From IMG/VR virus record IMGVR_UViG_3300045902_000319, positions 1 through 37,579 of that record: a DNA stretch of 37,579 nucleotides, one strand, 5' to 3'. The position numbers were made by a program, and so were the translations under genes. The stretch comes from a virus. The notes below the pieces were generated by a model. That model was not told where the DNA came from and made no database searches. It saw only the letters and a list, made by a program, of their open reading frames with translations. The first letter of the stretch is position 1. Every line of letters starts with the position of its first letter. Positions 4,327 to 36,114 of this stretch are shown here, one piece after another.

Positions 4327-5193
4327 ATGAATCAAGACAAACAACGAAAAATTGAATTTACAGGTCAAGATGGATTTACTACTGTGTACAACTCTTTTGT
4401 TAGGGATTCAAATTTGAGTTTTAAAGCCCGTGGGTTAATGCTATGGATACAAAGCCATGATCCAGAAAAATTCAAACTCTCAAAGGGTAGTTTTCGGTCG
4501 GCATCCAAAAAAGATGGAACTGAGTCTATAAATTCCGCAATCAGAGAGTTAAAAGTACAAGGATATTTAGAGATAAAAAGAGTCAGAGACGAAAAAGGGG
4601 TTTTTATTTGGGTATATAGATTTCACAAAGGTGGTCAAAAACTTTCCTTAGTACAAGAAAACAAGAAAACCGATCAATCCATAGGGGGGAAATCCATCGA
4701 TGGGTTTTCCATGCATGGGTTTTCCATCGATGGGAAACCACCCCATATAAGAAATAACAAAGAAGAAATAACAATTAAAGAAAGAACAAGAGAGAGTAAT
4801 AGAGAACACGCTCGCTCGGAAACTTCAAATAGGATTGAAAATATTTCGTACAAGGAATGTCTTAGATTGTACAACGAATTTGCAAATAAACCGCAATCAA
4901 TATCTGACTCAAAGCTTGTTAATCAATTGCTTATGCGAAATGAAGACCCTTCCAGTACACTAGAATTATTAAAAGACGGGTACACGAAATTAAAAGAGAT
5001 AGAAAAAAATTATTTATCACTATCTGATTTTAACCGTAAAAAAGTATCAATTATTTTAGATGCAATGTACATTTACAACAACTACTCTAAAATTTTTGAC
5101 GTGTTCAACGAAATTCCTAAAGATAAACCAAAACAATCCGAGAATAAAACTAATTCTAATTGGATGCTACAATTAAAAAAGGGGGCAAAATAA
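4327..5193 (+). CDS. Replication initiator / replisome organiser
   Basis: The first 100 residues look like the winged-helix domain of phage and plasmid initiators: YNSFVRDSNLSFKARGLMLW, a helix pair with SKGSFRSASKKDGTESINSA, and the wing KVQGYLEIKRVRDEKGVFIWVYRF. Residues about 118-137 are a five-residue repeat (SIGGK, SIDGF, SMHGF, SIDGK) encoded by 15-bp DNA repeats, an arrangement seen where the origin lies inside the initiator gene, as in lambda O. The C-terminal half is helical and charged and may contact the helicase or its loader. ACAAGGAATTATAT precedes ATG 4327. GTAC density rises sharply from this gene on. Confidence 0.8.
   Translation: MNQDKQRKIEFTGQDGFTTVYNSFVRDSNLSFKARGLMLWIQSHDPEKFKLSKGSFRSASKKDGTESINSAIRELKVQGYLEIKRVRDEKGVFIWVYRFHKGGQKLSLVQENKKTDQSIGGKSIDGFSMHGFSIDGKPPHIRNNKEEITIKERTRESNREHARSETSNRIENISYKECLRLYNEFANKPQSISDSKLVNQLLMRNEDPSSTLELLKDGYTKLKEIEKNYLSLSDFNRKKVSIILDAMYIYNNYSKIFDVFNEIPKDKPKQSENKTNSNWMLQLKKGAK
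4679..4738 (+). repeat. Four 15-bp iterons, candidate replication origin
   Basis: Four exact 15-base periods lie at 4679-4693, 4694-4708, 4709-4723 and 4724-4738. Units 2-4 each begin with a 10-base palindrome: CCATCGATGG, CCATGCATGG, CCATCGATGG. Unit 1 (CCATAGGGGG) is degenerate. The period equals five codons, so the repeat shows in the protein as well. Iterons inside an initiator gene are the known layout of lambda-type origins, and AT-rich sequence follows within 50 bases. Confidence 0.7.
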
Positions 5194-5194
5194 T

Positions 5195-5710
5195 ATGTTG
5201 GAAAAAATTTATTTAGACGATAAAGAAATTCAGGACTTACTCGAAACAATGAATCGAAGTTCTAAAATTATCGAAGTAGATAAAAATAGTGAACAACAAA
5301 AAATATTTAATCAGTATGAGAAGGAAATTTTGAATCTTGGATTAGAAGCAGGATTAAAAACTTGTATTGTCAATAAATTCGAAAAACACTCACAACGGGA
5401 AATTTATATTTCCTATCTGAGACAAGAAGCAAATTTAATTTACTCGAAAGAGGAGTACAAGTTTTCAGTTTTTAATGAGTTGGAATTTTTAAACGATAAT
5501 TTATTTCCAGTCTCAGAGTATACTAAATCTAAAGTTATTTATTTCAAAAATTTATTTACTGGTTCAGTGAATCAATACAATAGAAATAAATATTTATTGC
5601 TGTGGGAACGACTGTTTGATTTGAGAAAATCTAGAATCTATATTTTTGAGACCTCCGAGAAAGAGCCAATCGAAGAAGTGAAACAATATTTAACCGAAAT
5701 TATGGAGTAA
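5195..5710 (+). CDS. Hypothetical protein, 171 aa, downstream of the initiator
   Basis: I do not recognise this protein. It starts one base after the initiator stop, with AAGGGGGC at the right distance, so it is co-translated with the initiator. It is acidic, almost wholly helical by composition and lacks Walker motifs, so it is not a DnaC-type ATPase loader. The position beside an initiator would suit a non-ATPase helicase loader or replication accessory factor, but nothing in the residues proves it. The operon ends 122 bases before the next gene, with a fresh promoter between. Confidence 0.7.
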   Translation: MLEKIYLDDKEIQDLLETMNRSSKIIEVDKNSEQQKIFNQYEKEILNLGLEAGLKTCIVNKFEKHSQREIYISYLRQEANLIYSKEEYKFSVFNELEFLNDNLFPVSEYTKSKVIYFKNLFTGSVNQYNRNKYLLLWERLFDLRKSRIYIFETSEKEPIEEVKQYLTEIME

Positions 5711-5741
5711 AAAAAATTTAAAAAAAGCAAAAAAAAATATC

Positions 5742-5793
5742 TTTTTCGCTTGACAAGTTTTGTCAATTTGTTACAGTGTTTTTATAGGCAAAT
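5742..5793 (+). promoter_or_regulatory. Promoter and operator, copy 1 of an exact 52-bp repeat
   Basis: TTGACA at 5750-5755 with TACAGT 16 bases on, and overlapping TTGTCA at 5760-5765 with TATAGG 17 bases on (5783-5788), give two possible sigma-70-type promoters. The -35 region is itself an inverted repeat, TTGACAA-GTT-TTGTCAA (5750-5766), a likely operator. The 52 bases 5742-5793 are identical to 36287-36338, and both copies are followed by an ACCGATAAGGAGA leader, so the genes at 5833 and 36362 are probably controlled together. Confidence 0.8.
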
Positions 5794-5832
5794 CGGATAA
5801 GCCAACAAAAACCGATAAGGAGAATAAAAATT

Positions 5833-6258: not shown

Positions 6259-6265
6259 AATTTCT

Positions 6266-6288: not shown

Positions 6289-6304
6289 TAAGAATCTGAA
6301 TAAA

Positions 6305-6345
6305 TTTATAAAAAAATTTATAAATTTATTTAGCTTTTTAAAAGC
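6305..6345 (+). repeat. Internal copy of the contig-end leader repeat
   Basis: Bases 6305-6338 are identical to the last 34 bases of the window (37546-37579), and 6320-6345 match the first 25 bases with one extra A. The element contains two TTTATAAA palindromes separated by four A and then an AGCTTTTTAAAAGC near-palindrome. It sits directly before the ribosome site of the 6359 gene, exactly as the junction copy sits before the gene at 40. It may be a shared promoter or operator. Confidence 0.75.
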
Positions 6346-6358
6346 GAAGGAGAAATAA

Positions 6359-6699: not shown

Positions 6700-6723
6700 G
6701 ATTGATTTGTAGAGGTTTTTAAG

Positions 6724-6747: not shown

Positions 6748-6770
6748 GTACATGTTTTTAGGAGTAAAAG

Positions 6771-7346: not shown

Positions 7347-7483
7347 GCGGAGAATATGCAATAGAAATACTAAAAAGAAATATCAAAACGATAGATGTAC
7401 TAACCCATGTGCAGTTTGTTTATCGTCTTATGTGGGCTGATAGATTGAAACGGTTTCCAGAAAGTGGAAATAGTAAAAATTAA
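7343..7483 (+). CDS. Small hypothetical protein, 46 aa
   Basis: ATG 7343 overlaps the stop of the previous gene (ATGA), and TTGGAGAATA precedes it. The product (MSGEYAIEILKRNIKTIDVL and onwards) is a short amphipathic helical protein with no recognised family. It is the last gene before the structured non-coding interval upstream of the terminase. Confidence 0.55.
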   Translation: MSGEYAIEILKRNIKTIDVLTHVQFVYRLMWADRLKRFPESGNSKN

Positions 7484-7490
7484 AAAAATC

Positions 7491-7519
7491 TTGACTAATT
7501 ATGTACTATCAAGTACATT
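7491..7519 (+). promoter_or_regulatory. Promoter with GTAC operator palindrome
   Basis: TTGACT (7491-7496), a 17-base spacer and TACATT (7514-7519) form a good sigma-70-type promoter. The perfect inverted repeat TGTACT-ATCA-AGTACA (7502-7517) overlaps the -10 box, a typical repressor-site position. Transcription would start near 7526, with no gene before the terminator at 7655. Confidence 0.65.
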
Positions 7520-7572
7520 GTTTTTGTTGTTGTATATTGTAAACTCCTTTTACGTGTGCAATTTCTAAAACT

Positions 7573-7610
7573 ACTTCCTAGACTCGCTTTGGTCGGTTGG
7601 TCTAGGGAGT
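7573..7610 (+). repeat. Stem-loop with 11-bp arms
   Basis: ACTTCCTAGAC (7573-7583) pairs with GTCTAGGGAGT (7600-7610), with only one G-U position, around a 16-base loop (TCGCTTTGGTCGGTTG). It is not followed by a T-run, so it is more likely an RNA structure or protein site than a terminator. Confidence 0.6.
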
Positions 7611-7654
7611 AGCCTAGTTCTGTTTTTCATTTTTCCATTATTTATTCTCCGATT

Positions 7655-7673
7655 GCCCGAAAGGGCTTTTTTT
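7655..7673 (+). terminator. Rho-independent terminator
   Basis: GCCC-GAAA-GGGC (7655-7666) is followed at once by seven T (7667-7673) and further AT-rich sequence. The stem is short but has the stable GAAA loop also used in other hairpins of this genome. The orientation is rightward, ending transcripts from the small-gene operon and from the promoter at 7491. Confidence 0.75.
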
Positions 7674-7761
7674 ATTTTATATTTTTTTTCAAGTACAATA
7701 AAAATTTTTGTTTGACTTTTAGATACTAGGGGGGAAAATACTTTCGGAGAATAAATCCCCC

Positions 7762-7942: not shown

Positions 7943-7972
7943 TTGACAAAAACCTAAAATCTTGTTTAGTAG
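7943..7972 (+). promoter_or_regulatory. Promoter for the packaging and structural genes
   Basis: TTGACA (7943-7948) and TAGTAG (7967-7972) with an 18-base spacer lie just upstream of the terminase. The predicted start near 7979 leaves only about 14 bases before ATG 7993, without a Shine-Dalgarno site. The -10 box is less certain than the -35. Confidence 0.5.
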
Positions 7973-7992
7973 TGTACAAGATTTATTGTACC

Positions 7993-9513
7993 ATGGGCGA
8001 CGAAAAAACGAAAAAAAAACGAGGCAACAAACAGAACCTAAAAATGTTTTCGTCCACATACCAACCTAAAAAAAATGGACGACCTAAAAAAATTCCTGCC
8101 TTGGAAGAATTGTTTAAAAAGCATATGCTTGAGGAATCGAAGGGGGAAACTGATTTAGATAGAGTAATAAAATCCCTTAAAAAAAACGCAATAAAAGGCG
8201 ACATCCAATCTATACAATATCTACTAAACAGAATTTACGGTAAACCTAGAGAACAAAAAGAAGAGAAAGAAATAGAGTCAAAAGAACTTAGTACAAGATG
8301 GCATTATGAACATAGACCAATAGGCATACAGTGGGATATATACGAGGCAAACAAAAGATTTATTGTACTAAATGTGGGTAGACAGTTTGGGAAATCAGAA
8401 TTAGGTCAATTAAGATTAGCTAGGAGAGCAGAGGAAAAAGAAGGGGTGTACTGGTGGCTCTCTCCTACCTATTCACAAGCAAGGGTTGTTTTTCGAAGGT
8501 TTCTCAAAAACTTTAAAAAAATTATTTCCAAAGTAAACAAATCTGAACTAATGATCGAATTGTACAACGAGTCGGTTATATTTTTCAAATCGGAAGAAAA
8601 ACCAGATAACCTCAGAGGGGAAACACTTAATGGTGCAGTACTAGATGAATATGCTTCCTACAAATTAGATACATGGGATGAAATTATTAGACCTATGCTT
8701 GGTACAACAGAGGGATGGGTTGATTTTCTTAGTACACCAAAGGGGAAAAACCATTTTTGGAAACTGTACAATGACGCAAAGAAAGACCCTAATAATTTTG
8801 ATGTTTTTGAGTTTCCTTCTAATGCAAGCCCCTTTTTTTCACAGTCTGAATTTGATCTTGCAAAAAAATCTTTACCAAGTATAATTTTTGAGCAAGAGTA
8901 TCTAGCAAAATTTATTGATGACAATACAGGGGTTTTCCGAGGTTTACAAAATTGTATCTCAGATAGGTTAGTATATGATCCTAGTACACCAATCATTCAA
9001 AAACCATACGAGCATTATAGATATGTCATCGGGCTTGATATAGCCAAACATTTAGATTTTACAGTGATTACTGTATTTAATGCACATACAAAAGAATTAG
9101 TGTACTATGATCGGTTTAATCAAATGCCATACTCCTATATATCGGATAGGGTTGTTAGTGTATCCAAAAAGTACAACAACGCTCTAATCGTTATGGATGC
9201 TACAGGGATTGGAGACGCTCTAATAGAGTTAATACAAGGTCGAGCAGATTTGCTCCCAATAAAATTCACAAATTCAGTTAAGCAGAATTTAATATACTCT
9301 TTGGCTTTGGCAATCGAAAATCAAGAAATTACTTTACCAAACATTCCTGAAATGGTACAAGAAATACAAAACTATAGTTTGAAAATTCTTAGTAGTGGAT
9401 TGATTTCGTACAACGCCCCCGAAGGACAGCATGATGATATAGTGATTAGTATTGCCTTGGCAGTGAGTAGACTAAAAGAAGAAACTGTAAATATAGATAA
9501 TTTGATAATGTAA
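7993..9513 (+). CDS. terL: Terminase large subunit with an N-terminal DUF5681-like segment
   Basis: This is the DNA-packaging motor and nuclease. Walker A is GRQFGKSE at about 129-136. Walker B is AVLDEYA with Asp218 and Glu219. The RNase-H-fold nuclease has VIGLDIAKH (Asp349) and the C-terminal GQHDDIVIS (Asp481, Asp482). The first 90 residues (STYQPKKNGRPKKIP, then a helical DRVIKSLKKNAIKGDIQSIQ and LLNRIYGKP) resemble the stand-alone DUF5681 family, often found beside terminases, so a small-subunit-like part may be fused here. No separate small terminase gene is visible. I prefer ATG 7993 to GTG 7972 because the latter lies inside the predicted -10 region. Confidence 0.93.
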   Translation: MGDEKTKKKRGNKQNLKMFSSTYQPKKNGRPKKIPALEELFKKHMLEESKGETDLDRVIKSLKKNAIKGDIQSIQYLLNRIYGKPREQKEEKEIESKELSTRWHYEHRPIGIQWDIYEANKRFIVLNVGRQFGKSELGQLRLARRAEEKEGVYWWLSPTYSQARVVFRRFLKNFKKIISKVNKSELMIELYNESVIFFKSEEKPDNLRGETLNGAVLDEYASYKLDTWDEIIRPMLGTTEGWVDFLSTPKGKNHFWKLYNDAKKDPNNFDVFEFPSNASPFFSQSEFDLAKKSLPSIIFEQEYLAKFIDDNTGVFRGLQNCISDRLVYDPSTPIIQKPYEHYRYVIGLDIAKHLDFTVITVFNAHTKELVYYDRFNQMPYSYISDRVVSVSKKYNNALIVMDATGIGDALIELIQGRADLLPIKFTNSVKQNLIYSLALAIENQEITLPNIPEMVQEIQNYSLKILSSGLISYNAPEGQHDDIVISIALAVSRLKEETVNIDNLIM

Positions 9514-17905: not shown

Positions 17906-18150
17906 ATAGTTTCTCTCTTTATAAATTAAATTATAAGATAAAATTTCTTGACATGTTCGAAGTCGAGAAAAATTTAATGTTGCTTCAAATATTCCATGGG
18001 GACACAAAGAAATTATTTACAGATTTAGAAAAAAAATTTACAAAGTACAACGATTATTTTAAAGAAAATAAAATTATTGACTTTGAAAAGGTTGACAAAA
18101 TACGGAAAGGATTGTACGATTCTTTAAGGTTCTTATATGGCGACAGTTGA
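17836..18150 (+). CDS. T domain of the tail chaperone, reached by -1 frameshift (G-T fusion)
   Basis: The -1 frame is open from the TGA at 17833-17835 to the stop at 18148-18150. It reads as a coherent domain (WGYEKERLISKGYKEKEIDS, then LYKLNYKIKFLDMFEVEKN). Its only later ATG (17953) has no ribosome site. Slippage on the A10 run (17835-17844, zero-frame GAA AAA AAA AAT) would give a fusion of about 223 residues starting at 17480. This matches the known G/G-T organisation. The T part would recruit the tape measure or the tube protein. Confidence 0.75.
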   Translation, partial: KKKSRWGYEKERLISKGYKEKEIDSFSLYKLNYKIKFLDMFEVEKNLMLLQIFHGDTKKLFTDLEKKFTKYNDYFKENKIIDFEKVDKIRKGLYDSLRFLYGDS

Positions 18151-21643: not shown

Positions 21644-22412
21644 CTATATTGTACAAAATCGTAAAGGTGAAAATCTAGTATTCGATAAAAGTTATAAAAA
21701 TTCTCCTATCGAATTAAGTTTGAAAAATGAGATTTTGGATAAATACAGGCAATATGGATCGATTGCACAAGGTGATCAAAAATACTCTTCCAGAAAATTG
21801 AGTTTTAATTTTGATCTTATAGCAACCAACCCATTAAATTTTCGATATGAAATGAATAAAATTTCATCATTTTTTAATTTACTGGACTCCCCATTTTATT
21901 TAATAAATCTATCGTACAATATAAGGAGCGAGGTAAGACTCAATAAATTAAAGCCAAATTTTAAAGAAGGTCTTGAGGAATTGATTGCACTAAATTCAGA
22001 GATTGAATTTGAATTATTGGATGGATTGTTTTATACTAACACGCCTCTTGAAGCTGAAATAAATTCAGTAGTACACAATTCAACTTTTGAATTACCAATT
22101 TCAGCCGAGGCGAAAGAGGCATATGGTCAAATTGAATTTACTTGCGTACAAGATTGTAATGAATTTGCTTTACTAAATACAACAACAGGTGAAAATTTCC
22201 AAATAAAAGAAAATGGTTTTGTCGCTGGTAAAAAAATTATTGTTGATAATGATAAGGGCTTGTGTTTTTTTGAGGGAAACCAAAGACCTCTAATTATGAC
22301 AAGTGGTTCTTTTATGACATTCAGGAATGGCAACAATTCTTTTAAATTTCAGACTCCTACAATAGGCATAGTCAATATAAAAATTATTTACAGAGAGGGA
22401 TTTGATTACTAA
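21636..22412 (+). CDS. Distal tail protein (Dit-like)
   Basis: The gene after the tape measure normally encodes the hexameric hub that starts the tail tip. This 258-residue protein has a beta-rich N-terminal domain (RKLSFNFDLIATNPLNFRYE, then IRSEVRLNKLKPNFKEG) consistent with Dit, and a C-terminal beta domain (GENFQIKENGFVAGKKIIVD) consistent with the galectin-like part. The overlap with the tape measure stop is eight bases. Identification is by position and fold-type pattern. Confidence 0.7.
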   Translation: MSSYIVQNRKGENLVFDKSYKNSPIELSLKNEILDKYRQYGSIAQGDQKYSSRKLSFNFDLIATNPLNFRYEMNKISSFFNLLDSPFYLINLSYNIRSEVRLNKLKPNFKEGLEELIALNSEIEFELLDGLFYTNTPLEAEINSVVHNSTFELPISAEAKEAYGQIEFTCVQDCNEFALLNTTTGENFQIKENGFVAGKKIIVDNDKGLCFFEGNQRPLIMTSGSFMTFRNGNNSFKFQTPTIGIVNIKIIYREGFDY

Positions 22413-22933
22413 TGATTCTCACTGGTAAAGAAATTATTTCTAATATTAACAAGGGAAACATAGTAATAAAACCTTTCGATAAGTCGCAATTAAACCCAAA
22501 TTCATATAAATTACGATTGCATAAAGAACTTTTAGTATACGATTCTTTCCCAATTGATATGAAAGAAAAATCAAGTACAGCAAAAATTGAAATTCCTGAA
22601 AGTGGTCTATTACTAAATCCTAATACACTATATCTTGGAAGAACATTAGAATATACTCATACAGAAAATCTTGTACCAATGATAGAAGGTCGATCATCTA
22701 TTGGTAGGCTGGGAATGTTTGTGCACATTACGGCAGGCTTCGGAGATACTGGTTTTACTGGTTATTGGACACTAGAAATTTCTGTTATCCATCCAACTAT
22801 TATCTATCCCGAAATAGAGATATGCCAAATTTTTTACCATACAGTACAAGTGGAAATTACTAAATACTCATCTGGAAAATATCAAAACAATAGAGGAATA
22901 CAGGCTTCCCTACTATACAAGGAATTCGAATAA
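22412..22933 (+). CDS. dcd: dCTP deaminase (Dcd/dUTPase superfamily) inside the tail module
   Basis: The enzyme converts dCTP to dUTP, feeding thymidylate synthesis. Diagnostic parts are LNPNSYKLRL (27-36), the nucleotide-binding EGRSSIGRLGMFVHITAGFG (92-111), DTGFTGYWTLEISV with the catalytic Glu at 122, and the C-terminal GKYQNNRGIQAS. The TLE context and HITAG block favour deaminase over plain dUTPase; a bifunctional form cannot be excluded. It is joined by TAATG overlaps to tail genes on both sides, an odd place for a metabolic enzyme. Together with ThyX (29410) it gives a dCTP to dTMP route. Confidence 0.9.
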   Translation: MILTGKEIISNINKGNIVIKPFDKSQLNPNSYKLRLHKELLVYDSFPIDMKEKSSTAKIEIPESGLLLNPNTLYLGRTLEYTHTENLVPMIEGRSSIGRLGMFVHITAGFGDTGFTGYWTLEISVIHPTIIYPEIEICQIFYHTVQVEITKYSSGKYQNNRGIQASLLYKEFE

Positions 22934-24798
22934 TGGATATTGGGTACATCACTAGAAGTGCAAGTACATACGGTGGCAACTGGAATAAAATAAAGGGTCA
23001 ACCAAGAGAGTACACAATTTTCAATTCGTATAGTGAGGCAAATACAGGTGTACTAAGGGTATCAACTTTAACGGGTGCATTAGTTGGGAATATTTCTTTG
23101 ACTAACAGGAATACAAAATTTGTAGAAGGGATTTTTCACACTACACCCGATGGATCAGAAAGTTTTTCTTTCAAATTAAATTCACTTCCTGATTTTCCTA
23201 TATTACGTTTTTCTAAAGTTCAAATAGCACTAAATGAAAATAAAATATTTTCTGGCTATATCTCAGAGATTCCAGAACAAGGGACAAAGAGAAAAAACTA
23301 TTTTGAGTACAAGGGCTTTGGTACTGCGAAACTTTTAGAAAAACAAATAGTACAAAACGATCTTGTTTATGACATTAAAAATATTACTGTTTCTGGTTCA
23401 AATATGGTTATTGAATCCACTACTGATCTAGATTCTAGAGTACAAGTAAATAGATATGCAATTGTCAAAGGGGCGGCTGAAAGTAACAATAATATTTCTG
23501 GGTACATTACTAATGTTTCTGGACGTGAAATAACTTTACTAAATCCCGCTGCAATTGCTCAAACAATTACAATAGGTCAAATTTGGGTTTTACCCGAAGA
23601 ATGGTCGGGCTATGGTACAGTTTTAATTAGCGACTTATTCCGTCAAATAGTCACAACCTATGCGAACGAGTTACCAATAAATTATGTACCAGAAAAGATT
23701 TTTGATACTACTGGATTTACAACGGGCGGCGGTCGAGTTGATTTTCATGGGAGTACACTGAAAAAAGTTTTTGACAATATTAAATTGATGCTTGGAAATT
23801 CCTTTGATTTAGGAGTAGATGAAACTGACTCATTTTTTCTTAGACCGAAACCAACGAATACATTAGGACAACTCCATTCAGGATGGCAAGTACAAGAACC
23901 AGACATAAAACTAAGAACAAATAATATAATAAATTTTTGTATAGTAAACAGAAAGCAAATATCTAATAAAAATGCAAGTACAACTATTGGAGCGACCAGT
24001 CAAGATTTAACAAGTCAAAAAAAGTATGGGCTATTTAAGAAAGAAATTGAAGTGCCTTCTTATATGTCCGATTCTCTTTGTCAAATAATTGCAGATCAAA
24101 AAGTACAAGACTATAAAGAACCCAAGCCACAAATAAACCTGAAAAATCTTGACTTAAAATATTATCAACATGGTTATTATAATATAGTAAGCGAACAAGA
24201 TGAATTTATTTTTGACCTCGACGATTTCGAATCCTTAACAGGGTGGAATAGTGATCCATTAGGAGTAACGACTACTCTTGATAATGATGTACTGATTTCT
24301 GGCGCATACTCTACAAAATTTCTTTTGACTAGTGATTCAAATGGAAGTAAAAAAATCAAAACAGTTGATTGGAAATTAAATTTTGGAAAAGAATTATTTC
24401 TTTGGGTGTATCAATCTACTCCTAGCCAAATACTAAGATTTTATTTTGGAGAAACATCACATACAGAAAATTATTTTGATATTTTCCCGAGTGTAGCAAA
24501 TTCTTTCTTCCCAGTTGTTTTAAATATATCTAATTTAGGTTTATCTAAAATAGGAGAAATTGCTTTCGAGTTTTCTAATGTATCCACTAGTACAAGTATT
24601 TACATTGACAGAATGCAAGTTCTTGACTTTGGTAGTATTAGGTATCGTTCGTACACAAAAAAAGTTGTTTATAAATTTTTGACAAGAAAGAGTGTTGTAG
24701 ACATTGAATTTGGAGACGATAACCCAAGAAATTTAGAGGACTTTATGAGCGGAGTACAAGGTCAAATAGAAAGTAGCAAACTAATAACAAAGGACTAA
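22933..24798 (+). CDS. Tail-tip / baseplate hub protein (Tal-like)
   Basis: The 621-residue protein follows Dit (with the deaminase between) and begins with a beta domain. VQIALNENKIFSGYISEIPE matches the hub-type motif seen in Tal and gpD-like proteins. A middle segment with STLKKVFDNIKLMLGNSFDL resembles hub domain organisation. The C-terminal third has a carbohydrate-binding-like beta sandwich (STKFLLTSDSNGSKKIKTVD, LFLWVYQSTPSQILRFYFGE). It probably closes the tube and carries receptor-binding parts. The start overlaps the deaminase stop. Confidence 0.7.
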   Translation: MDIGYITRSASTYGGNWNKIKGQPREYTIFNSYSEANTGVLRVSTLTGALVGNISLTNRNTKFVEGIFHTTPDGSESFSFKLNSLPDFPILRFSKVQIALNENKIFSGYISEIPEQGTKRKNYFEYKGFGTAKLLEKQIVQNDLVYDIKNITVSGSNMVIESTTDLDSRVQVNRYAIVKGAAESNNNISGYITNVSGREITLLNPAAIAQTITIGQIWVLPEEWSGYGTVLISDLFRQIVTTYANELPINYVPEKIFDTTGFTTGGGRVDFHGSTLKKVFDNIKLMLGNSFDLGVDETDSFFLRPKPTNTLGQLHSGWQVQEPDIKLRTNNIINFCIVNRKQISNKNASTTIGATSQDLTSQKKYGLFKKEIEVPSYMSDSLCQIIADQKVQDYKEPKPQINLKNLDLKYYQHGYYNIVSEQDEFIFDLDDFESLTGWNSDPLGVTTTLDNDVLISGAYSTKFLLTSDSNGSKKIKTVDWKLNFGKELFLWVYQSTPSQILRFYFGETSHTENYFDIFPSVANSFFPVVLNISNLGLSKIGEIAFEFSNVSTSTSIYIDRMQVLDFGSIRYRSYTKKVVYKFLTRKSVVDIEFGDDNPRNLEDFMSGVQGQIESSKLITKD

Positions 24799-29048: not shown

Positions 29049-29417
29049 TTAATATTCCTGTTTATTTATAAGAACTTCTTCCCCGTCTATAATTTTATAG
29101 TGTTCTTTACAGACCAATTTGTTTTCAGAATTATATTTATATTTATATTTATATTCCCAAAGAAGAACTTCTTCCCCGTATTTTGTTGTATATTCTGCCT
29201 GATAAATTTTATTATTTCTTTTATCGTATTTGTATTCGTTTCTCCATAGAAGAATTTTGTTCCCATCTTGTATTTTATAATATGCAACTTGAATCCTATT
29301 ATTCCTCTTGTCGTATTTGTATTCTTTTTTATAAACAAGAATATCTTTGCCACCATGTAATTCGTAATATGCTTCGGAAATCAAATTCCCTTTTTTATCG
29401 TATTCCCTTTTATTCAA
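29049..29417 (-). CDS. Aromatic-repeat protein, paralogue of the 6771 gene
   Basis: The 122-residue protein consists of about four units of 27-30 residues (KEYKYDKRNNRIQVAYYKIQ, DGNKILLWRNEYKYDKRNNK, GEEVLLWEYKYKYKYNSENK), a YD-like beta-hairpin repeat with regular Tyr, Trp and Lys. The gene at 6771 encodes a shorter relative on the other strand. It starts with TTG 29417, overlapping the end of ThyX, behind GAGAAAGAG. There is no signal peptide. The function is unknown; the repeat fold suggests a binding role. Confidence 0.7.
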   Translation of the reverse strand: MNKREYDKKGNLISEAYYELHGGKDILVYKKEYKYDKRNNRIQVAYYKIQDGNKILLWRNEYKYDKRNNKIYQAEYTTKYGEEVLLWEYKYKYKYNSENKLVCKEHYKIIDGEEVLINKQEY

Positions 29418-30300
29418 ATCTCTTTCTCTTATTTAATGTATTTGGATTTACTAATAAACCAAGTTTATAAAATTTCTCTTTTAGTTCTCTGCCTTCCCTA
29501 TCCGAAAGGTTTCGGAGTAAAAAATAATAATCCTTGTATCTTCCATCTATAAAACAAGAAATAATTTCTTGCTCTAACTTACTTAATCGTATACTACCTA
29601 TAGTATAGTCTTTAAAAGCCCTATATGTGATTGGACACCATAAGTACAAGATTTGAAATATCTTTCTGGCATATTGCCTAATTTCAAATTGTGCATGAGA
29701 ATCCATTCTGAGAGTTAAAAAATTCAATAGATTGTGTAAATCTATTTTCCAGTAAGCTTCTGTATAGGTAGATAGAGGTAAATCTTTGCGAGCTTGTTCT
29801 CTTGCCATTCCCTTGTCGATTCTCTCTTTGTAAACCGATATGATTTGTGATTGCAGTTCTTTCTCTTGTTTAGAAAAATATTCACCTTCGCTAGAATCAA
29901 AGAATCCACTGCTACCTTGTCGATTGGATTTTGATTGTACTCTCCAATCTTTTGGACTTGTTGTTTGCATAGAGTCAATCGCCAATGAATATCTTGTAGA
30001 ATATTCATTCACATTTGCAGTGCGATGCCTGATCCATTGACGCCAAGTGTCCATTGGTACACGGATATGCAATTTAATTTCGCACATTTCAAAGGGAGTT
30101 GTGTGTCGATTTCTTAGTAAATACCTAATCAAATTCGTATCGCTGGAAATTGTTTTTGTACCACTCCCATAAGATACTCTAGCCGCTTGTACTATTGAAT
30201 CGTCTGTACCCATATAATCAATTACTCGGATAAATCCATCATTCAAAACATTGTACTTTTTACCTAAAATTTTGTTTAGGTTTTTGCTTTCTGCTCTCAT
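29410..30300 (-). CDS. thyX: Flavin-dependent thymidylate synthase
   Basis: ThyX makes dTMP from dUMP using methylene-tetrahydrofolate and FAD. The signature RHRx7S is present at 91-101 (RHRTANVNEYS), preceded by RHTTPFEMCEIKLHIRVPMD (65-84), which contributes FAD and substrate contacts, and followed by SHAQFEIRQYA near residue 200. A length of 296 residues is normal. TAGGAGAAAAAA precedes its ATG at 30300. It complements the dCTP deaminase at 22412, so the phage directs pyrimidines into thymidylate for its AT-rich DNA. GTAC remains enriched in this leftward gene, in the sense orientation. Confidence 0.95.
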   Translation of the reverse strand: MRAESKNLNKILGKKYNVLNDGFIRVIDYMGTDDSIVQAARVSYGSGTKTISSDTNLIRYLLRNRHTTPFEMCEIKLHIRVPMDTWRQWIRHRTANVNEYSTRYSLAIDSMQTTSPKDWRVQSKSNRQGSSGFFDSSEGEYFSKQEKELQSQIISVYKERIDKGMAREQARKDLPLSTYTEAYWKIDLHNLLNFLTLRMDSHAQFEIRQYARKIFQILYLWCPITYRAFKDYTIGSIRLSKLEQEIISCFIDGRYKDYYFLLRNLSDREGRELKEKFYKLGLLVNPNTLNKRKRFE

Positions 30301-30316: not shown

Positions 30317-30568
30317 TCATAACTCTTCGTGTAAAAACTCCCTTGCATTTGGAAAAATATCAAATAATTCTTCTTGTTCTTCTTCGTAAAAAAATCTACC
30401 TATATCGTAATTTATCCCATTAGCAAGGTCTTCGTCCCAAATTCCTTCGTGAATTTCATAATCTTCTTCAGTTAAGATCATGAGCACAACAAAATAGGTA
30501 TTCATTCTTAAAGGGTATGCTTTTTTTAGGGCTATATCTATTGCGTCACGTTCTTTAGATAAATTCAA
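30317..30568 (-). CDS. Acidic hypothetical protein, 83 aa
   Basis: TTG at 30568 with GGAGAAAATAA before it overlaps the stop of the upstream gene (TTGA). The protein is very acidic, with long stretches of Glu and Asp (TEEDYEIHEGIWDEDLANGI, FYEEEQEELFDIFP). It has no recognised domain. Such acidic small phage proteins are sometimes DNA mimics or inhibitors of host enzymes; that is only a possibility here. Confidence 0.65.
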   Translation of the reverse strand: MNLSKERDAIDIALKKAYPLRMNTYFVVLMILTEEDYEIHEGIWDEDLANGINYDIGRFFYEEEQEELFDIFPNAREFLHEEL

Positions 30569-30897
30569 TTATTTTCTCCTATAATAATATTTATATCTTT
30601 ATAATAATGTATATATAAAATACAATAGCCCTTTTTGAGTCCCTCGGAATCCTGTAAAATATTTACTATTTGACCTGCAATAAAATTACCAGAAAATTCA
30701 TCTGACTCAGGGGCATGCTCTTGTAAAATTATCCAATCCCCTATTTGATAATTTCTATCGTTTTTTCTTAACTCCCAATTTTTTTGACCTTTCAGAGTTT
30801 GTTGGAAGAATGGGTTAGTACATTTCAATTTATGAAAATTGAATCTTTCGCCACCTTGTTCAATTTTGATTCCTTTCTTGTTCTTTTTTATTCTCAT
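30565..30897 (-). CDS. DUF3850 / ASCH-like protein, 110 aa
   Basis: The core HKLKCTNPFFQQTLKGQKNW followed by ELRKNDRNYQIGDWIILQEH is the conserved pattern of DUF3850 in the ASCH/PUA-like superfamily (HxLKxxxxFFxxxxxGxKxxELRKNDRxYxxGD). These proteins are thought to bind RNA or modified nucleotides. The GYCILYIHYYK end also fits. AAAGGAGAAAATAA precedes the ATG, inside the 55-bp duplicated promoter region. Confidence 0.8.
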   Translation of the reverse strand: MRIKKNKKGIKIEQGGERFNFHKLKCTNPFFQQTLKGQKNWELRKNDRNYQIGDWIILQEHAPESDEFSGNFIAGQIVNILQDSEGLKKGYCILYIHYYKDINIIIGENN

Positions 30898-30901
30898 TTT
30901 A

Positions 30902-30956
30902 TTTTCTCCTTTAATAATAATATTTATTATCGGGTTAATTAAAAAATACTTTACAA
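30902..30956. repeat. 55-bp divergent promoter repeat, copy 1
   Basis: This segment is identical over 55 bases to 32947-33001. It carries the ribosome site of the leftward gene (AAAGGAG on the minus strand), an AT-rich leftward promoter region with a TTAATTAA palindrome, and at its right end TTTACAA, which serves as -35 in both directions (TTTACA rightward, TTGTAA leftward). It couples DUF3850 (left) with the holin (right). Confidence 0.8.
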
Positions 30957-30978
30957 GAAATATGTACCATAGTACAAT
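30950..30978 (+). promoter_or_regulatory. Holin-amidase promoter, probably leaderless
   Basis: TTTACA (30950-30955), a 17-base spacer and TACAAT (30973-30978) form a near-consensus promoter. The predicted start is about seven bases on, at ATG 30985, and there is no Shine-Dalgarno site. GTAC occurs twice in the spacer and -10 region. It probably serves as the lysis promoter. Confidence 0.65.
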
Positions 30979-30984: not shown

Positions 30985-31248
30985 ATGAAATTTGACTACT
31001 CAGATATAGCAAGCAAGGTTTATTCGAGATCATTTTTTGCAGTGTGTGTATTTATACTACTATCTCTTGGTATAGCAATTTTTAATCAAGATGATATTGT
31101 TGAAATCATGAAGATTGTACTGGCATTTGTAAGATATGCTCTAGCTCTATACGTTGTACCAGTATCCTTACAGATTGCAGGTGAATATGCTAAATTGATT
31201 TATGAAATTTTAGGGAATAAGGAAATTAAACGTGAAAGTAAAAAATAG
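30985..31248 (+). CDS. Probable holin, 87 aa
   Basis: Two hydrophobic segments (about 17-34, SFFAVCVFILLSLGIAIF, and about 43-66, MKIVLAFVRYALALYVVPVS) separated by a short acidic turn, and a charged tail ending in KEIKRESKK, make a class II-type holin profile. The endolysin gene follows with a 17-base overlap. It would form lesions in the inner membrane and release the amidase. Confidence 0.75.
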   Translation: MKFDYSDIASKVYSRSFFAVCVFILLSLGIAIFNQDDIVEIMKIVLAFVRYALALYVVPVSLQIAGEYAKLIYEILGNKEIKRESKK

Positions 31249-31804
31249 TTTGTTGGATAATGCAAGCTTTAAAAAAAGCCCAAATATTGGATCAACTTTA
31301 AACCCGATTGGAATTATATTGCACTACACTGCAAGTCCATCTTTGGGTAGTGCTGTAAATTGGATATGCAACAAAGAATCGAAAGTAAGTTACCATGTAC
31401 TAATTGGGAGAGATGGAAAAATAGTACAAACTTGCCCATTTAATAGAATTGCTTGGCATGCTGGAATCTCTGAGTACACAATTGGAAATAAAAAATTGAC
31501 TGGCTTGAATAATTTTACAATTGGAATTGCACTCGAAAATATGGGATTGTTACACAAAAAAGGGAATGTTTTTTGTGATAGATTGACTGGTCTAGTCGTT
31601 ACTGATTACACAGTTGTAAATAAAGAAGCTTGGCATAATTACACTATTATTCAATTGGAAACTTTAAACAATGTACTAAAAGTTTTGTGTACTCACTACA
31701 AAATACAATTTGTTGCGAGTCATAGCGAGGTGGCACAAGGAAGAAAAATTGATACAGGTGCTTTGTTAGATTTAAATAAAATTAGGAGAGATTTAGGTTT
31801 ATGA
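31232..31804 (+). CDS. Endolysin, N-acetylmuramoyl-L-alanine amidase (Amidase_2)
   Basis: The enzyme cuts the bond between muramic acid and the peptide. Zinc ligands are visible as His31 (ILHYTAS), His164 (ASHSEVAQG) and Asp174 in GRKIDTG, with Tyr54 (SYHVLIGRDG) and WHAGIS as further family motifs. At 190 residues it is a single catalytic domain without a wall-binding module or signal peptide, as in T7 lysozyme-type and AmpD-like endolysins. I use GTG 31232 behind AAGGAAATTAAAC. The typical GRKxDPG motif has Thr in place of Pro. Confidence 0.92.
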   Translation: MKVKNSLLDNASFKKSPNIGSTLNPIGIILHYTASPSLGSAVNWICNKESKVSYHVLIGRDGKIVQTCPFNRIAWHAGISEYTIGNKKLTGLNNFTIGIALENMGLLHKKGNVFCDRLTGLVVTDYTVVNKEAWHNYTIIQLETLNNVLKVLCTHYKIQFVASHSEVAQGRKIDTGALLDLNKIRRDLGL

Positions 31805-31980
31805 TAAATTTCAGAAAATTAAATAAATATAAATATCAATTGAAAGAAAATATTGAGCCTTCTCTAGTACATGATGCCTTGACGCAACTTTGGGAAAATA
31901 AAAAATTGACTGATTATCAATACCAGTTAGCAAATGATTTTTTTAGGTGGCACTTTATGCGTTGTACTTTTTTGATTTAG
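31801..31980 (+). CDS. Small protein at the end of the lysis cassette, 59 aa
   Basis: ATG 31801 overlaps the amidase stop (ATGA), so it is co-translated. The product (MINFRKLNKYKYQLKENIEP and onwards) is basic at first and helical later, without a clear membrane segment, so it is not an obvious spanin. No family is recognised. It ends 16 bases before the convergent leftward GIY-YIG gene. Confidence 0.6.
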   Translation: MINFRKLNKYKYQLKENIEPSLVHDALTQLWENKKLTDYQYQLANDFFRWHFMRCTFLI

Positions 31981-31996
31981 GCAATAAAGATTGTTT

Positions 31997-32470
31997 TCAG
32001 ACTGCATTAAAAATTGGATTCATATCATAGATAAGCTTATGTTCTTTTAATTTATTTTCTTCATAGTCTGAAATAACTATTAAACTGAAATATACATCAA
32101 AATTCCAAATTAAGTTTTCACATAAAGCATCAAAATATTTATCATACCATGTACCATTTTTTATATTTTGATACTGGTTAAACCTAGTTAAAAATGTAAC
32201 TGTCCTGCCAGCATATAATGGAATAATTACCTCATTATCATTTTCCAATTCTATTCTATTGTAAAAAACATATAGTCCTTTATCTCTCTTTTCTTTGTAT
32301 AATTTCTTTATTAAATCATTTGATTTCTTAGGTATTTCATAGGTATCATACCAATTTGCATCTAAAAATTTTTCATCGTAATAGGTTTCTTTATATTCCG
32401 ATAAATAAGATAAAAAATATTTTAATTTTAAAATATCTCGTAATGTAAGTTGTCTTCTTTGTAATCCCAT
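31997..32470 (-). CDS. GIY-YIG superfamily nuclease-like protein
   Basis: The GIY and YIG strands are represented by GLYVFYNR (65-72) and PLYAGRTVTFLTRFNQY (84-100) with the conserved Arg, and the metal-binding Glu is probably E143 in LKEHKLIYDMNPIFN. The N-terminal 60 residues are helical. Stand-alone GIY-YIG proteins in phages include homing endonucleases and repair-type nucleases; no DNA-binding NUMOD domain is visible, so the role is open. It stands next to the lysis cassette in the leftward direction and has AAAGGAAAATAA before its start. Confidence 0.7.
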   Translation of the reverse strand: MGLQRRQLTLRDILKLKYFLSYLSEYKETYYDEKFLDANWYDTYEIPKKSNDLIKKLYKEKRDKGLYVFYNRIELENDNEVIIPLYAGRTVTFLTRFNQYQNIKNGTWYDKYFDALCENLIWNFDVYFSLIVISDYEENKLKEHKLIYDMNPIFNAV

Positions 32471-32557
32471 TTCATTTATTTTCCTTTATCATAAAATATT
32501 TTTTTTACTAAAATCAAAAAAGAGTTAGTTGTTGTACTGTGTATTGGTTTTACTATT

Positions 32558-32944
32558 TTATTTTATAAAAATCTTTACTAATTCTCCATTTTCGTAGATA
32601 TTCCCAATAACTTCAAGGTCTAAATGTACATAATTTCCCAAAAAATTATAGTCAGAACCAACCAAACAGAATGAGCCATTTAAAAAAGTAACTTCATGTA
32701 AAAATGTTTTGCCATTTATATTTATCCTAACAATATCATTTTCATAAATTTCTTCACCATTTTTATCAAATAAACCTGTAAATTGAATGAGTTCATAAGT
32801 TTCTTCTTTAAGTTCTAAAACACCCGACCCGCATTCCGTATCTTCACTACAAACTTTCCCCAATAAATTTATAAGTATATTTTTATTAGGAGCAACCATT
32901 TTTTTTGCTATTTTATCCCAAAGCCTATATTTAACCGTTCTCAT
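32558..32944 (-). CDS. YopX family protein
   Basis: The pattern MRTVKYRLWDKIAKKMV, then YELIQFTGLFDKNGEEIYEN, DIVRI, and a final HLDLEVIGNIYENGELV is that of the YopX family, frequent in prophages and phages and of unknown function. The protein folds as a beta barrel in known structures and is thought to be multimeric. AAAGGAGAAAAAA precedes its start, inside the second copy of the 55-bp repeat, so it is probably co-regulated with the DUF3850 gene. Confidence 0.88.
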   Translation of the reverse strand: MRTVKYRLWDKIAKKMVAPNKNILINLLGKVCSEDTECGSGVLELKEETYELIQFTGLFDKNGEEIYENDIVRININGKTFLHEVTFLNGSFCLVGSDYNFLGNYVHLDLEVIGNIYENGELVKIFIK

Positions 32945-32946
32945 TT

Positions 32947-33001
32947 TTTTCTCCTTTAATAATAATATTTATTATCGGGTTAATTAAAAAATACTTTACA
33001 A
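32947..33001. repeat. 55-bp divergent promoter repeat, copy 2
   Basis: This segment is identical to 30902-30956 and lies directly upstream of the YopX-like gene (leftward). To the right it again supplies TTTACA (32995-33000), but no good -10 follows at 17 bases, so the rightward activity of this copy may be weaker or need an activator. The sequence after 33001 diverges from copy 1. Confidence 0.8.
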
Positions 33002-33017
33002 AAAATACTAAAGTTTT

Positions 33018-33049
33018 TCTCATACCCTACCGTAGTAGGGTATATGAGA
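33018..33049 (+). promoter_or_regulatory. Inverted repeat covering the start of the membrane HTH gene
   Basis: ATACCCTAC (33022-33030) and GTAGGGTAT (33035-33043) are perfect arms around CGTA. The pairing can extend to TCTCAT and ATGAGA with a 2-base bulge, which would bury the ATG at 33044. No Shine-Dalgarno site precedes this ATG. It is a candidate operator or a hairpin that controls translation of the gene. Confidence 0.6.
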
Positions 33050-33829
33050 ATAATATTTTCTTTTATTGTACTAATTATTATTACTATCGTGGAGTATGCA
33101 CAACTAAACTCACTATTCAAAATAGTGTACTCTACTCCTGAAATATTATCTGGATCAATTACTCTTATTATTTTGTTTGTGAGTATTTACGCAAACAACA
33201 AAAACTTAAGATTTTTCGGGAATTTATTTTTTATGTTTCTTCTTGTACTCTCCTATCTTTGGAACGTGGATAAAGATTTTGTGGAACTAGACAAAAATAA
33301 ATCTAGCGAAATAAACGAACTGTACAAAGAAATTAAAAGTACAAGAAAAAAAATTGACTTAGAGAAAAATACTATTGTTTGTTACACCCCAAAGAGTGAT
33401 TTAGAGATTCCTAGTTTTAATCAGTGTATTTATAGACGTTCCGAAAGGGCTAAAGAAATTATTGCAAATAAAACACGTTGGGAGAAAGAAATTTCCGAGT
33501 ATCAATCTAGACTAGAAAGAGTAGATCAGAAAGAAGCCAGAAAAGATATTGCACTAATAAAAATCTTCATAGGAATAATTATTAGTACAATCTTTTCTTT
33601 TGCTTCGCTTGTTTCGTGTACTATTATTAGAGAGTATATCTCTGGAAGAAAAACAGATTTGAAACGGGAACAAATAGATGAGCTAGAAATATCTATCCCT
33701 GAAATCAATTTAGAGTTAGAGCAAAAAATAAAAAATCTTAGGGAATCAGGATTATCTTTTGGGAAAATTGCGGAACAACTCAATTTATCTAAATCGACAG
33801 TGCACTATTTGTACAATAAAAATAACTAG
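33044..33829 (+). CDS. Membrane-anchored helix-turn-helix protein
   Basis: Three N-terminal membrane segments (about 1-20, 37-52 and 55-73) are followed by a charged, helical region (about 80-165) with two cysteines. A fourth segment (about 172-195, ALIKIFIGIIISTIFSFASL) leads to a cytoplasmic-type C-terminus. That C-terminus ends in a clear helix-turn-helix (RESGLSFGKIAEQLNLSKST and VHYLYNK, about 232-258) of the resolvase/Hin type. The combination suggests a membrane-bound DNA-binding regulator or a protein that tethers phage DNA to the membrane. A triple 11-bp repeat starts at the end of the gene. I know no described family for it. Confidence 0.75.
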   Translation: MRIIFSFIVLIIITIVEYAQLNSLFKIVYSTPEILSGSITLIILFVSIYANNKNLRFFGNLFFMFLLVLSYLWNVDKDFVELDKNKSSEINELYKEIKSTRKKIDLEKNTIVCYTPKSDLEIPSFNQCIYRRSERAKEIIANKTRWEKEISEYQSRLERVDQKEARKDIALIKIFIGIIISTIFSFASLVSCTIIREYISGRKTDLKREQIDELEISIPEINLELEQKIKNLRESGLSFGKIAEQLNLSKSTVHYLYNKNN

Positions 33830-33854
33830 ACGGTTACTGGACGATTATTGGACG
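33822..33854 (+). repeat. Three tandem 11-bp repeats
   Basis: The units are ATAACTAGACG (33822-33832), GTTACTGGACG (33833-33843) and ATTATTGGACG (33844-33854), consensus RTTAYTGGACG. They span the end of the HTH gene and the leader of the next. The 11-bp period puts each unit on the same helix face. The same motif recurs twice at 34494-34525. Confidence 0.7.
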
Positions 33855-33862
33855 GTCAAAAA

Positions 33863-34492
33863 ATGGGACAAGAGAATTTTCAGAGTAAACAACAAAACAA
33901 TTTCACGGGAACTTTAAGGGAATTTATCAAGTATACAATTATTCTCGTGCTAGTTCTTTTGATGATCCCACTATCCTGTATAGGCGTAAGAGAGTATTTT
34001 AGGAATAGACCTATCCAAGACAGTGAGTATCTAGAGGTATTTAAATTTGTTTTTTGGATTTCTTTGTCCTTTGTTGTACTAGGGTACACTATTAAATTCT
34101 TGTACTCTATACTAGACTATATTGCAAATAAAAGAATCGAAAGAGTTTTTGCATCTAGGGAGTCAGGAATATCCCCTACTCTAAAGAGTGACTCGGAAAT
34201 TTATCCAGAAAAACAAGGGGAAAAAGATAAAAAGGGTAATAGGGGAGTGGATGAAAAGAAGGTTAGTGAATCTGAAAATATTAGGTACAAGAAAGAACTT
34301 TGGGATTTATATTTTAACGATTTGAAAGAATTTGACGTTCGAATCGATCAGTCTGGGAACAAAGAATTTATTAATATAAGCGAGGATGAGCGGGCAGAAC
34401 AAACAAACAATTGGATAGATAGGATTGGGAAATCATATGATGGGAATTTTATCTTGGCTTTCAGCGAACTTTCAGGCAATTTTAAGAAATAA
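33863..34492 (+). CDS. Two-pass membrane protein, 209 aa
   Basis: I start at ATG 33863 (a TTG at 33848 is possible but lies in the repeats). Two membrane segments (about 22-42 around IILVLVLLMIPLSCIGV, and about 61-83 around FVFWISLSFVVLGYTIKFLY) are followed by a polar, probably cytoplasmic, domain of about 120 residues with Lys, Glu and Asp. No family is recognised. It follows the membrane HTH gene and overlaps the next gene by about 55 bases, so the group may form one membrane complex, which is inference. Confidence 0.65.
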   Translation: MGQENFQSKQQNNFTGTLREFIKYTIILVLVLLMIPLSCIGVREYFRNRPIQDSEYLEVFKFVFWISLSFVVLGYTIKFLYSILDYIANKRIERVFASRESGISPTLKSDSEIYPEKQGEKDKKGNRGVDEKKVSESENIRYKKELWDLYFNDLKEFDVRIDQSGNKEFINISEDERAEQTNNWIDRIGKSYDGNFILAFSELSGNFKK

Positions 34493-34835
34493 ATTTACTG
34501 GACGATTATATAAATTTACTGGACGATTTATAAAAAATACTAAACAAAAAGGTACAAAACAATTGATTACAGAAAGCACAGTACAAGAAATAAAAAAAAT
34601 AGAGATAGGGGAAATTTTTAAATTGGCTCTAATTGATTTACAGCTAAGAAACCAACTCCAATCGAAAGGGCTAGAATTGTCTTTGGAAACATTGATCCAA
34701 GGTTTTATTATTCAAAATTATTTTATAACAAAACTTGGATTGGAAAAACATCTTTCCGAGTTTACAAAAAATATTCAAGATAAAATGTCAGAGGTCGATA
34801 ATGATTTGAGGAGTGTACAAGATGAGCAGGACTAG
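34437..34835 (+). CDS. Hypothetical basic/coiled-coil protein, about 132 aa
   Basis: The frame overlaps the preceding gene at its start; ATG 34437 or 34440 are the only good starts, with GGATTGGGAAA upstream. The N-terminal part has a short hydrophobic stretch (GILSWLSANFQAIL) and two copies of a KFTGR motif that reflect DNA repeats in the gene. The rest is helical (EIGEIFKLALIDLQLRNQLQ) and ends in an acidic coiled coil. The start is uncertain and the function unknown. Confidence 0.5.
   Translation: MMGILSWLSANFQAILRNKFTGRLYKFTGRFIKNTKQKGTKQLITESTVQEIKKIEIGEIFKLALIDLQLRNQLQSKGLELSLETLIQGFIIQNYFITKLGLEKHLSEFTKNIQDKMSEVDNDLRSVQDEQD
34494..34525 (+). repeat. Two TTTACTGGACG repeats 21 bp apart
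   Basis: TTTACTGGACG occurs at 34494-34504 and 34515-34525, embedded in near-identical 21-base units. It matches the RTTAYTGGACG consensus of 33822-33854 at all but the first base. The 21-bp spacing equals two helical turns. They lie inside a coding region, as sites for a repressor or tether might. Confidence 0.65.
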
Positions 34836-35148
34836 AGACTATTTTGTAGCATTAGAATTTTTAAAACAATTTGTTGGATTAAACAACATGACTCAAGAAG
34901 AAATAAATATTCTTATCAAAAAGGTAAAATTATTTATTGATAAGACAGAACCAAAGAAAAATAAATTTTATAATTACATTAAATCTAGAATCCAAGTCGG
35001 GGACATTATCAAACTTTCCAAATTGACTGGAATTCTAGATGCAACGATTTCGTACAATATAAAAAACGAAACTACGTACAAGGGCAGGGATAAAGTTTTA
35101 TATGAGGCTTTTTTAAAAATTGAATCTGAAAGGAATAAGTTAAAATAA
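34822..35148 (+). CDS. Small putative DNA-binding protein, 108 aa
   Basis: ATG 34822 behind GAGGAG is preferred over GTG 34813. The C-terminal half contains a helix-turn-helix-like stretch (VGDIIKLSKLTGILDATISY, then NIKNETTYKGRDKVLYEAFL), as in small phage regulators. The N-terminal half is helical and basic (LIKKVKLFIDKTEPKKNKFY). It could be the repressor or activator for the repeats or promoters found nearby, but the HTH match is modest. Confidence 0.55.
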   Translation: MSRTRDYFVALEFLKQFVGLNNMTQEEINILIKKVKLFIDKTEPKKNKFYNYIKSRIQVGDIIKLSKLTGILDATISYNIKNETTYKGRDKVLYEAFLKIESERNKLK

Positions 35149-35349
35149 ATGGAGCGTACTGTTTGTTTTGAAGTTACTGATCTCGGAACTGAAATCGAAT
35201 TGATTGAAGATGAAATTGAAGGAAAAAACCATTATACAATTTACAGTAATCGTACGCCAATTGAGCAGGGTGTACGACTGGAAACAATGGTTAGATTATT
35301 TATAATAAAGTACAACGAACAGGTTGCGAGAGAGAAAAGAGAGGGTTAA
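35149..35349 (+). CDS. Hypothetical protein, 66 aa
   Basis: The gene begins at the base after the previous stop, with GAAAGGAATAAG upstream. It is a small beta-rich protein (CFEVTDLGTEIELIEDEIEG, HYTIYSNRTPIEQGVRLETM) with a basic helix at the end. No family is recognised. Confidence 0.65.
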   Translation: MERTVCFEVTDLGTEIELIEDEIEGKNHYTIYSNRTPIEQGVRLETMVRLFIIKYNEQVAREKREG

Positions 35350-35354
35350 ATAAA

Positions 35355-35513
35355 ATGCAAAAGAGTATTGAACGTACAACAGTTGAAAAACAAATTGATT
35401 CTCCAAAATTCAGGGAAGAGGAAAAATTTTCCAAACTCGAAACTACAATTATTTTAGGGTCATTCCCTTTTTTATTGGTATCATTTTTTATTGATTTTTT
35501 AAGGAGTCTCTAG
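35355..35513 (+). CDS. Small tail-anchored membrane protein, 52 aa
   Basis: ATG 35355 follows the previous stop by five bases, with GAGAGGG upstream. The first 30 residues are charged (TTVEKQIDSPKFREEEKFSK), and the last 22 contain one hydrophobic segment (TIILGSFPFLLVSFFIDFL), a tail-anchor layout. The TAG stop overlaps the GTG start of the next gene (TAGTG), which implies translational coupling. The function is unknown. Confidence 0.55.
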   Translation: MQKSIERTTVEKQIDSPKFREEEKFSKLETTIILGSFPFLLVSFFIDFLRSL

Positions 35514-35701
35514 TGGACGATTTAGAATTTAATTTGAACCCGAAAACAATTACTAAGCTTATTGAAATTGGTGTACTAAAAATCGGTAAGCTTAGTAAAG
35601 AAATTATTGTCAATCATACTGAATTTAACAGGATTGTAGAGATAGGAATTGAAAGCTACAAATCTAGAATAGATAGAAATATAGGAGATAATAACGGGTG
35701 A
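35513..35701 (+). CDS. Hypothetical protein with GTG start, 62 aa
   Basis: AAGGAG six bases before GTG 35513 supports the start. The protein (LNPKTITKLIEIGVLKIGKL and a helical end) looks like a small helical or winged-type protein. Its stop overlaps the GTG of the nuclease gene (GTGA), so it probably accompanies the nuclease. No family is recognised. Confidence 0.55.
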   Translation: MDDLEFNLNPKTITKLIEIGVLKIGKLSKEIIVNHTEFNRIVEIGIESYKSRIDRNIGDNNG

Positions 35702-36114
35702 AAAAATATAAACTAAAATCTTTTACTATTTCCGAAGAACATTTACAAATCCAGTGCAACGATTTTTTGAAAATAAAATATCCTGAATTAGATAGATTAT
35801 ATTGGTTTAATTCCCTGCAATCTATTAAATTATCTATTGGAGCAATTGCGAAAGTTAAAAGAAGCGGTGGGTTAAAAAAAAATTTACTAGATTTTTATTT
35901 ACTAAAAAATAATGGCAAGTACTGTGGGTTAGTAATTGAATTAAAAAAAGAAAGCCCTTATAAATTAAATGGACAATTGAAACAAGACGAACACCTCGAA
36001 AATCAGAGAGACACAATCGATTTGCTTTTAACCGAGGGATATTATGCCAAATTTTGTTGGGATTTAAAGGACTTCCAAAACACTATAAGATTATATTTAG
36101 ACAATAAACTTTAA
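35698..36114 (+). CDS. VRR-NUC domain nuclease
   Basis: The 138-residue protein has the layout of stand-alone phage VRR-NUC nucleases, PD-(D/E)XK enzymes that cut branched DNA such as Holliday junctions. Visible parts are EEHLQIQCNDFL (Glu14), VKRSGGLKKNLLDFYLL with Asp65, GLVIELKKE with Glu81 and Lys83, NQRDTIDLLLTEGYYAKFC (Gln103 and the GY.a motif) and the final DFQNTIRLYL. The usual PD appears as LD. GTG 35698 overlaps the previous stop. It would resolve junctions made by the exonuclease and annealase. Confidence 0.82.
   Translation: MKKYKLKSFTISEEHLQIQCNDFLKIKYPELDRLYWFNSLQSIKLSIGAIAKVKRSGGLKKNLLDFYLLKNNGKYCGLVIELKKESPYKLNGQLKQDEHLENQRDTIDLLLTEGYYAKFCWDLKDFQNTIRLYLDNKL

Follow-up and report, generated by a model that had tools for sequence, protein, structure and literature searches.

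The window analysed here is the whole of the IMG/VR virus record IMGVR_UViG_3300045902_000319, 37,579 nucleotides of a phage genome in which the word VGTACA (V = A, C or G) is strongly over-represented. An early block at the left end is followed by a main rightward block of replication, packaging and structural genes, and then by leftward accessory genes, thyX among them, that lie near or between rightward genes for an amidase and for unknown proteins (Table 1). VGTACA and its reverse complement TGTACB, counted on either strand, are referred to below as the motif.

GTAC excess and its asymmetric unit

A preliminary description of this DNA had reported that GTAC was strongly enriched, and the excess was larger than it had stated. 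The window holds 281 copies of GTAC compared with 133 expected by a maximal-order Markov model (z = 16.0), the first rank among all 256 tetramers (runner-up z = 6.5), while 70 are expected by a first-order Markov model and 109 by base composition. With codons shuffled so that every protein was preserved, coding DNA had 264 GTAC versus 117 expected (z = 18.6), again ranked first, and all three reading frames showed the excess (observed/expected 83/39, 94/50 and 87/28). It is explained neither by the Markov null, nor by the codon-shuffled null, nor by an equal enrichment of unrelated tetramers. The large terminase gene contained exactly the 13 GTAC that had been counted between 8281 and 9513, nine of them GTACA in the sense direction; in thyX, five of the seven sense GTAC were GTACA.

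The palindrome GTAC, which had been treated as the unit, is not the word that is enriched. GTACA was found on one or other strand (A after or T before) in 265 of the 281 GTAC, but both flanks together (TGTACA) were present in 22 copies versus 68 predicted if the flanking bases were independent. By codon shuffling, VGTACA was enriched 3.5-fold (153 observed, 43 expected) and TGTACB 4.4-fold (72 and 16), the palindrome TGTACA merely 1.6-fold (23 versus ~14), and GTAC outside these contexts, VGTACB, was depleted (16 and 44.5, ratio 0.36). The palindromes AGTACT and GGTACC were under expectation, and GTATA and TGTAT were depleted. No flank dependence of this kind was found in the control palindromes CTAG, TGCA, AATT and ATAT; GATC and TTAA showed some avoidance of self-complementary hexamers. 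Since VGTACB depletion is common to Leptospira phages and plasmids, the special feature of this genome is the VGTACA excess in either orientation.

The motif density is ~6.5/kb, either orientation, or ~240 sites in the genome. Weaker preferences were seen outside the hexamer, with T before it and, after it, A or C, then not-A, then not-T. Flank weights trained on one orientation predicted the opposite orientation (z = 5.7 and 4.9). A search for dimeric spacing or helical phasing of the motif gave no clear preferred spacing, and the motifs were spaced a little more evenly than if placed at random on possible sites (p = 0.015).

Synonymous occupancy was measured as motif-bearing positions divided by positions able to carry the motif without protein change, and was 47% genome-wide. 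By strand, 144/296 possible sites (49%) and 72/162 (44%) were filled, giving no polarity; the trend toward GTACA in the sense direction noted earlier is present and is explained by A-rich sense strands. Intergenic DNA had 17 motifs in 3.2 kb versus 2.0 expected (~8-fold), and no VGTACB.

Codon choice is bent to create the word, as had been proposed from the Tyr codons of the terminase. The count of TAC in 6 of 7 cases after G was reproduced there (from 8281), whereas after other bases TAC was used in 5 of 14 cases from 8281 and 7 of 18 in the whole open reading frame. Genome-wide, 87 of 121 Tyr codons after G were TAC versus 118 of 407 otherwise. Before C, 71% of Val codons were GTA, compared with 32% elsewhere; GGT made up 67% of Gly codons before AC but 23% of those before A plus another base; and Lys was AAG in 11/24 cases before TAC and 6/169 before other T-starting codons. 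Because both transitions and transversions feature among the synonymous routes that create sites (Val GTA versus GTT; Lys AAG before TAC), no single mutation bias accounts for the motif. Amino-acid order is also affected (z from 4.5 to 6.1): the rightward genes from 4.3 to 35.7 kb offered 397 possible sites versus 313 in shuffled proteins (z = 6.1), and the early and leftward genes 81 versus 80. The signal acts on double-stranded DNA, since flank preferences replicate between orientations, intergenic DNA is enriched and amino-acid order is biased.

Occupancy along the genome

The preliminary description had placed the enrichment at 4327-35920, in good agreement with occupancy, as about half of the synonymous sites were filled between 4.3 and 35.7 kb and 20% outside (35.7-37.6 kb and 1-4.3 kb pooled). 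Leftward genes together appeared poor in GTAC (10 observed, 9.5 expected), yet gene direction was rejected as the cause because thyX, read leftward, is normally filled.

Table 1. Features of the window, with the possible motif sites filled in each.
Feature	Position	Strand	Possible sites filled, or remark
Early block (RecE-like YqaJ nuclease, RecT, DnaB-like helicase)	40-4101	+	8/32, poorly filled
Main rightward block (replication initiator, terminase, portal, capsid, tail)	4327-28936	+	183/351 (52%)
Large terminase gene, example of the preliminary description	7972-9513	+	11/18
Tape measure gene	18137-21643	+	31/41, best-filled long gene
dCTP deaminase gene	22412-22933		within tail module
Tail protein gene	22933-24798		
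thyX	29410-30300	-	7/16
Other leftward accessory genes	30317-30897, 31997-32944, with 29049-29417	-	2/20 together
Right-hand rightward genes (amidase and unknowns)	30985-35701	+	24/47 (51%)
Gene for protein with C-terminal helix-turn-helix	33044-33829		
Right-end genes	35698-37477	+	1/13; motif observed/expected 0.7 (dinucleotide model)
Intergenic motifs	7396-7697		include inverted pair TGTACT (7502) / AGTACA (7512)
19-base identical contig ends	1-19, 37561-37579		copy also at 6320-6342 beside hairpin
Identical 52-nt elements	5742-5793, 36287-36338		upstream of genes
64-nt repeat, 97% identical	30899-30962, 32944-33007		upstream of two leftward accessory genes

The identical 19-base ends may mean that the genome is circular or that it was broken at a repeat; in a circular molecule, the poorly filled DNA at the two ends may form one contiguous block. 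A natural reading is that the poorly filled modules may have arrived recently, in line with the rarity of Chi in newly acquired genes (PMC8022716).

Other repeats were also present. The 52-nt elements contain the inverted repeat TTGACAAGTTTTGTCAA and promoter-like hexamers, and a 20-nt stretch of the element was absent from other viral contigs. The 64-nt repeat may be a promoter common to mobile gene cassettes. The presence of a dCTP deaminase gene together with thyX suggests a phage-directed supply of deoxythymidine triphosphate.

Host and possible causes of the motif

Eight structural proteins line up, in syntenic order, with those of a Leptospira-type plasmid-prophage (L094) at 23-44% identity, and the tail protein matches, among plasmids, Leptospira only. 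Leptospira genomes are reportedly modified at GTAC, going by the title of a 1993 report. The z-score of GTAC is +16 in the phage versus -2 to -6 in most Leptospira replicons (plasmids and phages). Because the structural genes are Leptospira-like, yet the sampled Leptospira replicons are GTAC-depleted and have no motif excess, the host is probably a Leptospira relative outside the sample, or an unusual lineage. The nearest hint came from Leptospira kobayashii plasmid pE30-1 (motif versus VGTACB z = 2.7, flank score z = 2.05), which was unconvincing after multiple tests. Scans of genome contigs for relatives found none, and searches of viral sequences with the terminase, capsid, ThyX, tail and minor capsid sequences and with the operator pattern found no phage with VGTACA enrichment.

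Extremes of other words were seen in phage contigs with related terminases: CCAGG/CCTGG was enriched ~3-fold in L168, L172 and L174 and absent from L145 and L147, and CCGG was enriched 3.9-fold in L166. In the present genome, GGCC and CCGG have zero copies (27 expected each) and GCGC/CGCG nearly zero, so that ordinary site avoidance, which is strong here, operates alongside the accumulation of VGTACA.

A DNA-reading protein or a repair process probably shapes the whole genome, a proposal made because the motif is as dense as words that serve as landmarks for recombination or methylation. The form that we tentatively prefer, at a little less than an even chance, is that the motif resembles HIP words in being iterated for recognition, under the influence of a DNA-binding or DNA-modifying protein that is likely host-encoded. 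The highly iterated, asymmetric motif seen in the double-stranded DNA, with the core 5'-VGTACA-3' and weaker flank preferences, would then most likely be read by a sequence-specific protein of the host. Site-rich DNA might be favoured if the mark protects or organises it; alternatively, mark-directed repair might retain every mutation that creates a site. Either process would be analogous to the HIP1 words of cyanobacterial genomes, and the poor occupancy of the early block and of most leftward accessory genes would reflect a later arrival, with filling still under way. A more specific proposal, which we consider rather unlikely, is that a Leptospira-like host has an uncharacterised system for DNA marking or mark-directed repair with VGTACA as its asymmetric target, and that phages living there are selected to accumulate sites up to half of the possible positions, whereas recognition sites are usually avoided. 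A host genome signature, one of the causes suggested earlier, stays in consideration for VGTACA, with sampled Leptospira replicons lacking the enrichment.

Several observations weigh against a HIP-like motif. The word is not palindromic, unlike HIP words and their methyltransferase sites. A six-frame search of the window for a cognate enzyme found neither a DNA methyltransferase nor a member of the Vsr family, which bears out the earlier remark that no methyltransferase was seen. Leptospira plasmids and phages, to which the structural genes are most closely related, showed no motif enrichment in a codon-aware test. Nor does such a motif by itself explain why the early block is poorly filled.

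VGTACA could instead be a Chi-like signal, at which a RecBCD/AddAB-type enzyme of the host stops degrading DNA and starts recombining, so that many copies benefit the phage. Chi-rich phages are a documented class, lambdoid phages without a RecBCD inhibitor, with observed/expected ratios of 2.4-3.1 (PMC3784561). Chi-like words are asymmetric and 5-8 nt long, with Chi rarer in recently acquired genes (PMC8022716), and VGTACA is likewise asymmetric and over-represented at the DNA level. One Leptospira biflexa plasmid has an annotated set of recBCD-like genes. VGTACA occupancy in L. biflexa p74 does not rise above baseline. Measured as in the present phage, Chi occupancy in phage SfV was 21/44 (48%), which resembles it, and in HK620, where an anti-RecBCD gene is annotated, 1/37 (3%). 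However, Chi in SfV is polarised (16/26 versus 5/18 possible sites), whereas VGTACA has no polarity after composition correction; its density is about ten times that of Chi in SfV; and it affects amino-acid order, for which SfV showed no bias (z = 1.0). The phage also has RecE/RecT-type genes of its own. A Chi-like role is accordingly unlikely in our judgement. We give still less credence to a binding site for a phage-encoded protein acting in compaction, silencing or packaging, by which the enrichment would be confined to the phage lineage. The graded flank preferences are those of a protein binding site, the structural module is the best filled, and the phage encodes a protein with a C-terminal helix-turn-helix; but no candidate protein is linked to VGTACA, and the spacing is barely more even than random. 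To our knowledge, ~240 sites far exceed known phage repressor arrays.

The main idea of the preliminary description, a methyltransferase or restriction-modification system with palindromic GTAC specificity, is now improbable. It would suit the Leptospira-like structural genes, but the depletion of VGTACB rejects a plain GTAC (RsaI-type) site, and Leptospira plasmids and phages are GTAC-depleted (z = -3 to -6). A modification system as such survives, with VGTACA as its would-be cognate word. We regard as very improbable that a mutation bias (Vsr-type T:G repair) or an RNA-level signal, the latter also raised earlier, makes the word. The depletion of GTATA and TGTAT and the predominance of GTACA in the sense direction would agree with such a cause. 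However, the two orientations are enriched to the same degree and their flank preferences are reverse complements of each other, intergenic DNA is enriched, the window has no Vsr family member, and synonymous choice also follows transversion routes, which rules out Vsr-like C-to-T repair.

Comparison with known systems

Chi and HIP1 are the main known examples of words that genomes accumulate instead of avoiding, and HIP1 still awaits an explanation. At 37 kb, the phage, which has one asymmetric word in ~240 copies and late proteins that seem biased towards hosting it, could be studied in full, and a spirochaete-like genome sharing the word could lead to the recognising protein and the host.

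HIP1 and alternate HIP words, which are GC-rich and palindromic, occur in cellular genomes together with methyltransferases (PMC4390886). By the measure used for the phage, HIP1 (GCGATCGC) in Synechocystis plasmid pSYSM had a synonymous occupancy of 57% and an amino-acid-order bias (49 versus 22 possible sites, z = 5.9). VGTACA occupancy was 3-9% in the sampled Leptospira replicons, two enterobacterial phages and a Synechocystis plasmid. The phage thus matches HIP1 in an occupancy near half, in its lack of polarity and in its amino-acid bias, and differs in that its word is A+T-rich and asymmetric, with no cognate enzyme known. With Chi in SfV it shares an asymmetric DNA word in phage genes at similar occupancy, but Chi is polarised, has a density of ~0.6/kb and leaves amino-acid order unbent. 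With the GTAC modification reported for Leptospira it shares the four-base core, and its structural genes are related to Leptospira plasmid-prophages; the phage word, however, needs one flanking A and avoids two, in a genome rich in GTAC where Leptospira replicons are depleted.
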